This document shows positions 9,811-11,888 of a stretch of 64,000 bases of DNA, piece after piece. This stretch comes from Bacteroidota bacterium. GTDB taxonomy: Bacteria > Bacteroidota > Ignavibacteria > Palsa-1295. The notes below the pieces were generated by a model, which was not told where the DNA came from, searched no databases, and worked only from the letters and a program-made list of their open reading frames with translations. How positions within the stretch are numbered: position 1 is the first letter of the stretch; every line of letters begins with the position of its first letter. The stretch lies in the NCBI GenBank assembly GCA_021324735.1, contig JAJPIO010000014.1, forward strand, positions 186,001 through 250,000. The letters run 5' to 3'. A program made the translations under genes and the position numbers.

Positions 9811-9861
9811 CCCCCTCCTCAGAAGCGGAGCGGATGAGGAGGGGGCAGGGGGTGGAGGCGT
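9811..9861 (+). repeat. Palindromic C-rich/G-rich repeat, copy R1
   Basis: Perfect 10-bp stem CCCCCTCCTC/GAGGAGGGGG with a 15-base loop (9811-9845), followed by a conserved tail CAGGGGGTGGAGGCGT. The whole 51 bases are identical to copy R3 (10530-10580) and match copy R2 (10423-10471) in opposite orientation. R1 lies just past the 3' end of the DUF559 gene, so R1 and R2 bracket that gene as inverted repeats. Confidence 0.93.
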
Positions 9862-9904
9862 AGCTCTGCCTCACTGGTGGAATTCTCATCCATGCGTTGC
9901 ATGC

Positions 9905-10357
9905 TCATCGCATTGGCTTGAGCGGCGGCAAAGGCGCGACGGTTCTCCGTTTGGGTGCTCGTGTCGTTCGCGGTCTTCCGTGAGAGGGCGGGACCACGTT
10001 GCGCTCTCGACCCTTCCATGTCTCGCGGATCCGCCGAATAACGCTATCGCAATCAGCAAGAAATTCGTCGTTGGTAAAGCGCATTACTTGGATGCCGAGC
10101 GAGCGGAAGTAGTCGTCGCGATCTGCATCGCGTTGCTTTGCTTCGTTGCTGTCGTGTGAACTGCCATCGAGTTCGATCGCAAGCTTCTCCTCCGGACAAT
10201 AGAAATCGGCAATGAAATGACCGATGCCTTTTTGCCGCGTGAACTTGCGTCCATCTAATTGAGCATCTTTGAGGAAATTCCAAACGAGCCGCTCGGTGAA
10301 GGTCGCTTCATTACGTAAGCGGCGCCGAGTAGAGGTGCGGGTGAGGTCCTTTGCCAT
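9905..10357 (-). CDS. DUF559 family protein, Vsr/MutH-like endonuclease fold
   Basis: The 150-residue protein matches the DUF559 family. It has an N-terminal helix (TEAxFTERLVWNFLKD-like), then FTRQKGIGHFIADFYCPEEK and LAIELDGSSHD, then a C-terminal strand GIQVMRFTNDEFL. The Asp of IADFYC, Glu and Asp of IELDG and nearby Gln are the residues expected for a restriction-type (Vsr-like) nuclease core. The biological role of the family is not established. The gene lies between two inverted copies of the CCCCCTCCTC palindrome (R1 downstream, R2 upstream), a setting I recall for DUF559 genes elsewhere, which suggests a link between protein and repeat. The C-terminal 35 residues are basic and low in complexity (RPRTTRAPKRRTVAP), possibly DNA-binding. 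Confidence 0.88.
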   Translation of the reverse strand: MAKDLTRTSTRRRLRNEATFTERLVWNFLKDAQLDGRKFTRQKGIGHFIADFYCPEEKLAIELDGSSHDSNEAKQRDADRDDYFRSLGIQVMRFTNDEFLADCDSVIRRIRETWKGRERNVVPPSHGRPRTTRAPKRRTVAPLPPLKPMR

Positions 10358-10422
10358 GACACACCATTGATTTTAGAGTGGGGAGGAGGTGGGAATAGCC
10401 ACCACGGAGGTAGACTGGAGAA

Positions 10423-10471
10423 CTCCACCCCCTAACCCCCTCCTCTTCCGTTTCACTCCAGAGGAGGGGGG
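10423..10471 (-). repeat. Palindromic repeat, copy R2 (inverted relative to R1 and R3)
   Basis: Contains the same perfect 10-bp stem CCCCCTCCTC (10436-10445) and GAGGAGGGGG (10461-10470) with a 15-base loop whose sequence differs from R1 and R3, and the conserved tail on the other side (CTCCACCCCCTA). It lies 66 bases upstream of the DUF559 start codon. A short piece GAGGGGGACCGAGT is repeated just after it (around 10465-10478 and 10493-10506), like a truncated fourth copy. Confidence 0.9.
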
Positions 10472-10529
10472 ACCGAGTTACTCATCCCACACGAGGGGGA
10501 CCGAGTGTGCCAATCTTTCCGACTATACA

Positions 10530-10580
10530 CCCCCTCCTCAGAAGCGGAGCGGATGAGGAGGGGGCAGGGGGTGGAGGCGT
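10530..10580 (+). repeat. Palindromic repeat, copy R3
   Basis: Identical over 51 bases to copy R1 and in the same orientation: 10-bp stem, 15-base loop AGAAGCGGAGCGGAT, second stem arm at 10555-10564 and tail CAGGGGGTGGAGGCGT. Complete identity including the loop implies recent copying. It lies between R2 and the next small gene, so the accessory block holds three copies within 770 bases. Confidence 0.93.
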
Positions 10581-10919: not shown

Positions 10920-11888
10920 ATGAGTGCCGAAAAAAATAATACGATAAAAATTGCTGATCAATTGGGGACTGGTGAAATCGCTTCTGCTGCAGATCGAAGC
11001 ATAAGAAAATTAATCGAGGCAGTGGGCACATGGTTCGGTGCTGGTGCCAGGCCTCGGTTAATTAAAAAAAGAGGGAAAGCTGCTCTTGAGGTTTTGCGTG
11101 AGTTTGATTCAACATTACAGAATACGGCAGCTATTACTTCAGCATCATTGCAGGTTGTTGGTGCGGAAGTTCAAGTGCTCGCAGAAGCGAATGACAATCC
11201 ACTGTCTTTGCATGAAAGGACTACACTTCGCGTTGCTAAATTGGAAGAAGTCTGACAATTAAATTCTGAAGCGGTTGTCGATAAGGCCGTTCTTTCTCTC
11301 CAAAATAGTCCAGACGACGCTTCTGAAGGGCCTGTTAATGCTGATTGGATAACCCGCTTCTTTGGTATCGTTCAAGATATTTCAGACGAGGATATGCAGA
11401 AGCTATGGGCACTTATTCTACGAGGAGAAGTAATTCGTCCTGGCAGCTATAGCTTAAGGACAATGGAAGTGTTAAAACAACTTTCGAAAGCTGAAGCAAC
11501 AGTTTTTGCTGGTGTTTCTAAGCATGTTCTTACGTCTAGCCCAGACACTTCAATACTTATTAAGAGTCGTCTTAACGCAGAGGCATTTGGTATTGCGACG
11601 TCCGATATAATGTTATGTACAGAACTAGGGCTAATTCAGCCAAATAATAATCATGTTTTGGCTTCGGAGGCAGACGAAAGGAGTGGCCCGTTAATCGATT
11701 TGCATTACGGTTCAAAGTCTATTAATCTTGAACCTCAAAATGGTGAAAGTATTATTGGACTTCCAGCTTTCTTCCTAACTGTTCCAGGGGCGGATCTTGC
11801 TACTCTGATTCCCAAAGATGATGAGGAGTATTTCTTACGTGTGGTGTCCTATTTCGAAAAGGATTACAAAACGAGTGTCATTCATTAG
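10920..11888 (+). pseudogene. DUF2806-like protein interrupted by a single in-frame TGA
   Basis: Reading frame 1 from ATG 10920 runs to TAG at 11888 (323 codons) with exactly one internal stop, TGA at 11253-11255 (codon 112). The same frame continues on both sides with family-like sequence. The N-terminal part is helical (ADRSIRKLIEAVGTWFGAG); the part after the stop has ADWITRFFGIVQDISDED, MQKLWALILRGEVIRPGSYS and LRTMEVLKQLSKAEA, which resembles the DUF2806/TIGR03899 group of uncharacterised proteins. The gene is AT-richer than its neighbours and sits beside the DUF559 repeat block, consistent with recent transfer. Either it is a nonsense-mutated pseudogene, a sequencing error, or the TGA is read through: its 3' context is CAA TTA, discussed under findings. 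Confidence 0.75.

Follow-up and report, generated by a model that had tools for sequence, protein, structure and literature searches.

The locus described here lies in a 64-kb window (the whole stretch of DNA that was analysed) and consists of a DUF559 gene accompanied by three copies of a structured repeat, R1, R2 and R3 (Table 1). Each copy contains the exact hairpin CCCCCTCCTC-15 nt-GAGGAGGGGG, for which 100 shuffles gave no match. An earlier note on this DNA had described three perfect hairpins with a 15-base loop and a conserved 3' tail, and the window scan confirmed them at exact coordinates. Likewise borne out were the identity of R1 and R3 over 51 bases (52 if the preceding A is counted) and the inversion of R2, which has the same arms and tail as the other two copies but a different loop and the linker TTA rather than CA. 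R1 and R2 do flank the DUF559 gene, as had been claimed, and the tails of both are directed at it. A three-part unit scan of the window returned exactly R1, R2 and R3, while shuffled windows averaged 0.2. Two side features were seen close by. The edge of R2, GAGGGGGGACCGAGT, recurs about 30 bp on as GAGGGGGACCGAGT (10463-10507), as if slippage or repair had copied the unit flank. In addition, a DUF2806 gene (10920-11888, + strand; 2.5e-33 if read through) contains an in-frame TGA at 11253-11255, and may be a pseudogene, the product of a sequencing error or a recoded gene.

Table 1. Features of the repeat-DUF559 locus, in coordinates of the 64-kb window.
Feature	Position	Strand	Basis and remarks
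R1	9811-9861	+	Exact match (hairpin 9811-9845); three-part scan; 51-base identity with R3
R1, C-rich arm	9811-9820		
R1, loop	9821-9835		
R1, G-rich arm	9836-9845		
R1, linker CA	9846-9847		
R1, mirror tail GGGGGTGGAG	9848-9857		Followed by GCGT; toward gene
DUF559 nuclease gene, 150 aa, PD-(D/E)XK/Vsr-like core	9905-10357	-	PF04480, 6e-31; invariant residues; structure model
R2, inverted	10423-10470	-	Mirror tail 10423-10432, linker TTA 10433-10435, hairpin 10436-10470; tail toward gene
R3	10530-10580	+	51-base identity with R1 (hairpin 10530-10564); inverted pair with R2, hairpins facing, tails outward
Compact cassette R1-DUF559-R2, 660 bp	9811-10470	.	Gene between inverted units; R3 and R2 form a second unit pair

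The protein encoded between R1 and R2 matches PF04480 over residues 8-112 with 106.9 bits, the curated Pfam cut-off being 20.6. An alignment of 67 homologues has ten invariant columns (E22, W26, F39, R41, D51, E62, D64, G65, H68 and D77), and the window protein keeps all ten residues, as an active PD-(D/E)XK/Vsr-like nuclease would be expected to do. The AlphaFold2 model (pLDDT 89) resembles 3hrl, I-Bth0305I (3r3p), PvuRts1I and, weakly, Vsr (1vsr). I-Bth0305I was also recovered by profile match (7.9e-6) and by Foldseek (2e-5), and phage homing endonucleases are among the PHROG matches. The family match, the invariant residues and the model bear out the Vsr-like nuclease core proposed in the earlier note, the match to Vsr itself being weak. 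Genetic evidence that DUF559 proteins act on DNA comes from Caulobacter, in which the DUF559 protein VsrA is needed in vivo for an SOS response in a methylase mutant; its authors proposed VsrA as a Vsr-type mismatch repair enzyme (PMC12907096).

The repeat had been taken for a palindromic hairpin. The hairpin is indeed present, but the reading as a plain two-strand hairpin did not survive, as the tail adds a third strand. Specifically, the tail mirrors the G-rich arm rather than complementing it, with one A swapped for T, and the unit therefore has three strands rather than two. In R1, R2 and R3, 10/10 tail positions fit the antiparallel purine-motif rule with A and T taken as equivalent (G on G; A or T on A). 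Purine-motif triplexes require just such a mirrored purine tail; in them, a Watson-Crick hairpin forms the stem and the tail runs antiparallel to the purine arm. This architecture is general among units near DUF559 genes. Over 81 such units, agreement between the tail and its own mirrored arm is 97% (A=T) and drops to 84% if arms are exchanged among loci (z=14). A mirror tail follows 176 of the 203 hairpins found near DUF559, versus 52 (sd 5) after arm swapping. Repetition of the arm in direct orientation was also considered as the origin of the tail and was rejected, since over the same 81 units its signal is far weaker (80.5% versus 77.7% swapped). The tail is displaced in 44 units, in most of which the linker itself folds as a hairpin, 39 better than their own shuffles (mean -5.2 versus -1.6 kcal/mol for shuffles), so that arm and tail stay adjacent. 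Judged from sequence, the mirror tails and hairpin linkers would be hard to explain except by a folded single strand. Moreover, strand polarity is near absolute, with 191 C-rich-left versus 7 G-rich-left hairpins within 300 bp of DUF559, and the repeat has no match in Rfam; these two results and the mirror rule rule out a plain hairpin or terminator. A separate observation concerns the flanks of two loci in one genome (L262 and L264, G004), which carry a unit family with C in the purine arm (CCCCCGCCTT..AAGGCGGGGG, tail GGGGGGTGG); a triplex of this family would need T opposite a C-G pair.

The BoxC/PIT repeats of E. coli have been known since the 1990s. By its predicted fold, the R1-R3 type of unit is a class II intrastrand triplex motif (BoxC/PIT/TM) and belongs to this known repeat class. 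Holder et al. (2015) renamed the E. coli elements TM_ECO, assigned them to the class II intrastrand triplexes and found that the E. coli unit forms a triplex in vitro by CD and NMR (PMC4666352). Such motifs were reported from more than 260 genomes and mark unstable sites; in vivo footprinting in E. coli saw no triplex, and BoxC was intergenic only (PMC4666352). That study reported no mobility gene near the motifs, mentioned neither a nuclease nor DUF559, and left the origin of the repeats unanswered. As in TM_ECO, the units beside DUF559 have a pyrimidine arm, a purine arm and a 3' reverse-Hoogsteen tail in the same order, as well as a 3-nt second loop (TTA or CCG) and inverted pairing, and E. 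coli ycjD adjoins units of this kind. What the DUF559 loci add is a partner gene to which the arm type corresponds, linkers that form hairpins, and copies lying in frame within genes. The first loop of the window unit, at 15 nt, lies outside the range of 1-6 nt taken in the published search, a limit that is a search setting of PMC4666352 rather than a structural requirement; short-loop units with the arms of the window are present in the same genome and genus.

The pairing of gene and unit was evaluated over 110 non-duplicate DUF559 loci, of which 80 came from GTDB genomes (chosen by similarity to this genome's proteins) and 30 from this genome and its relatives, after two loci repeating GTDB contigs had been dropped; the contigs are fragmentary. 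At 100/110 loci, which range from Bacteroidota to Cyanobacteria, a complete three-part unit is present at 400 bp or less, versus 14 of 274 background windows of equal length placed at least 1 kb from DUF559 loci (p=4e-64). The density of C-rich-left hairpins is 5.0 per kb at up to 100 bp from the DUF559 domain and 0.05 per kb at 2-4 kb, a 100-fold enrichment. Within one set of 61 genomes, a unit was present at 400 bp or less from 31/32 DUF559 loci but from 0/30 HNH loci and 0/30 Y1/RAYT loci, the last of which rejects RAYT/Y1 as the true partner. Where DUF559 is flanked on two sides, the units are inverted at 51 loci versus direct at 15. Units also adjoin DUF559 in E. coli, Neisseria, Deinococcus, Azospirillum, Sinorhizobium, Sphingomonas, Klebsiella and Synechocystis, while the DUF559 loci examined in Picosynechococcus and P. 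aeruginosa showed no unit pairing. The partnership of DUF559 and the units is well supported. On these counts the proposal in the earlier note that DUF559 is the partner of the repeats gains support, the recurrence of such pairs in unrelated genomes, which it mentions, is likewise supported, and the positional enrichment that it suggested looking for is found at 400 bp or less. The literature that we searched, mostly outside subscription journals, held no earlier link of DUF559, or of ycjD, to palindromes or triplexes.

The association extends to the sequence of the arms. Three DUF559 genes in this genome come with three arm types, CCCCCTCCTC in the window, CCCTTCTCCC (C4) and CCCCTCCTT (C16), and the arm type is identical on both sides of each gene. 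Over all loci, nearest protein neighbours share arm type at 0.898 versus 0.805 by chance (sd 0.013), so that protein and arm similarity correlate, as one would have from the suggestion that repeat sequence co-varies with the protein. Nor are the repeats equally abundant in genomes that lack the gene. In searches with two unit patterns, units were detected in 25/36 DUF559-bearing versus 8/25 DUF559-lacking relatives (Fisher p=0.005), and DUF559 and unit abundance correlate across the 61 relatives (Spearman 0.49, p=6e-5), both p-values being optimistic because the relatives are phylogenetically non-independent. The reversed-pattern control gave 0 hits in 61/61 genomes for both unit types. Units in the 8/25 relatives lacking DUF559 must be remnants or served in trans.

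The pairing can also be followed in E. coli, where ycjD of K-12 is a DUF559 gene and a BoxC unit lies between ycjD and fabI. A second complete unit overlaps the 3' end of ycjD in strain 98232, and K-12 has lost 12 bp of that unit. The region is variable, with most of it covered in 3364/5395 matching E. coli genomes. The inspected strains without ycjD carry an RND efflux operon at this position (L174, L235-L238, fabI-sapF), and because ycjD thus alternates with the operon between E. coli lineages, the site was rejected as a clean empty site.

Evidence for dispersal comes from units with and without the gene. In genome G004, which has 69 pattern matches, 20 copies of one family share exactly C, the triplex and T, with unrelated flanks on both sides; conservation stops at the triplex ends, which indicates that the dispersed unit is the triplex sequence itself. 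Units are also frequent within genes, where they are translated in several frames, and 27/43 lie in a frame open for 110 nt on both sides (shuffled DNA, 0.11; random positions of the window, 0.77). Two clean single-unit gains were found: gatA of this genome encodes the additional peptide IPPPLEGGGKGVV at a position taken up by a short variable loop in relatives, and a Gfo/Idh-type gene of G004 has about 10 extra codons relative to G001 and G003. Whole unit-DUF559-unit cassettes lie in frame within uvrC, metH, ileS and hsdM. Fusions join DUF559 to rnhA, hisF, an rlmB-like gene and recQ. At one uvrC site in a single genus, four species are empty, one has units only and three have units and DUF559. 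Clean target-site duplications and close strains with a fresh unit insertion were not found. Three individual cases were observed alongside. In genus g18 (uvrC loci L140-L147), a complete DUF559 cassette lies in frame within this DNA repair gene in three species. At 1465-2358 of L007 (own genome, C16), a unit links DUF559 in frame with the beginning of an RNase HI gene from the same genome (NCBIfam PRK00203, 5.8e-62). The open frame 2-5896 of L040 (Chloroflexi), like many other ORFs, encodes long proline/glycine-rich peptides such as PHPPAPSPNTLGEGEQGGEG, which are translated triplex units and can mislead protein annotation.

We hypothesize, with a probability of roughly two in three, that the locus represents an autonomous copy of a selfish system with two parts, triplex-forming units and a DUF559 endonuclease. 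In such a system, a single DNA strand carrying a unit of about 35-50 nt would adopt an intrastrand purine-motif triplex, with the C-rich and G-rich arms forming the stem and the G-rich mirror tail entering the major groove (G*G-C, T*A-T, A*A-T). The small endonuclease encoded between inverted units may recognise its own unit type when the latter is single-stranded or extruded, at the replication fork or under supercoiling, and may cut at the edge of the folded unit, whereupon host repair would copy or insert the unit elsewhere. Lone units and pairs of units would travel as non-autonomous passengers and depend on the enzyme in trans, much as REPs depend on RAYT. Our best reading is a REP/RAYT-like selfish system in which a Vsr/EDxHD-type nuclease would read triplex-forming DNA, cleave it and mobilise the units, and from this we infer that the repeat family could be 'nuclease-driven', in the term of the earlier note.

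The main rival holds that the units spread otherwise, by replication slippage or recombination, and that DUF559 acts as a selfish homing endonuclease, which would cut at units and have itself copied there, the units being its landing site and not its cargo. We regard this as unlikely. The nearest solved relative of the protein after 3hrl is a homing endonuclease, I-Bth0305I, phage homing endonucleases appear among the PHROG matches, and the uvrC series, with units but no gene in one species and both in others, fits homing and unit mobilisation alike. Against homing stand the many arm types, which track the protein, and the greater abundance of units where DUF559 is present. Single units disperse with exact ends into unrelated sites, which slippage leaves unexplained, and this precise dispersal favours unit mobilisation over homing.

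It is improbable that DUF559 is instead a Vsr-like host repair enzyme which resolves triplexes or mismatches, with gene and repeats sharing unstable regions. Such a role would agree with a fold related to Vsr and with the mismatch-repair function proposed for Caulobacter VsrA (PMC12907096), but for a repair enzyme at work genome-wide, neither a flanking pair of inverted units that match its own arm type nor an in-frame position within uvrC, metH or ileS would make sense, and other nuclease families of the same genomes have no units nearby. A comparably low probability attaches to a G-quadruplex, or a simple hairpin only, as the relevant fold, in which case the mirror symmetry would be a by-product of G-run composition. 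Arm and tail do contain four G runs, and in a related archaeal repeat triplex and quadruplex are in equilibrium (PMC8044849). Against this, the mirror rule applies at each single position, A/T sites and the inner arm among them, in arm swaps at similar composition, the C-rich arm remains complementary, and 18 imino signals from E. coli units were read by their authors as triplex, not quadruplex (PMC4666352). The chance presence of a small gene among REP-like repeats gathered in intergenic DNA has a negligible probability. Some of the genomes do carry many repeats (69 pattern matches in G004), but ordinary intergenic clutter is refuted by the 100-fold hairpin enrichment beside DUF559, the 0/60 for two other gene families (HNH and Y1) and the many units that are not intergenic.

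The closest functional analogue of the selfish two-part system that we favour is REP/RAYT, in which short palindromic units are likewise dispersed, often as inverted pairs, a dedicated nuclease gene is flanked by its own units, and units are served in trans, as DUF559 units may be. The DUF559 nuclease differs in being PD-(D/E)XK/Vsr-like and not HUH, the third strand of its units replaces the GTAG guide of REP, DUF559 units also enter genes in frame, and 0/30 Y1 (HUH) loci of the same genomes have a unit of the DUF559 type within 400 bp. EDxHD homing endonucleases (I-Bth0305I, 3r3p) are related in nuclease fold and sequence and share the selfish spread proposed here, whereas DUF559 comes without intron or intein, has many unrelated insertion sites and is flanked by repeats. 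The fused DUF559 ORFs that were scanned had no reported splicing domain, and DUF559 genes are intergenic, or in frame in many unrelated genes, with no fixed conserved site. Likeness to the Vsr mismatch endonuclease is confined to a weak similarity of the model to the fold of 1vsr. Rickettsia palindromic elements (RPE) are short palindromic repeats inserted in frame in protein genes, yet they are unlike DUF559 units in sequence and fold, and we know of no nuclease partner for them. To our knowledge, no other DNA enzyme has an intrastrand triplex as its proposed natural target.

The repeats themselves, and REP/RAYT as a functional analogue, are already known; the nuclease partner, the class of that partner and the in-frame invasion of genes are new. 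The evidence suggests that DUF559 is the long-missing enzyme that handles, and probably spreads, triplex repeats in many bacterial groups. The odds stand about even on the broader proposal of a widespread selfish class, in which a PD-(D/E)XK nuclease would read a three-stranded fold and disperse stop-free units and cassettes in frame within essential genes, with E. coli YcjD as the enzyme behind BoxC/PIT. A consistent nuclease partner makes the origin of BoxC/PIT repeats directly testable, E. coli K-12 included, and suggests a cause of the reported instability of genomes at triplex repeat sites. It also provides a functional lead for DUF559, a family spread across many bacterial phyla, and the translated units account for odd proline/glycine-rich inserts in many proteins.
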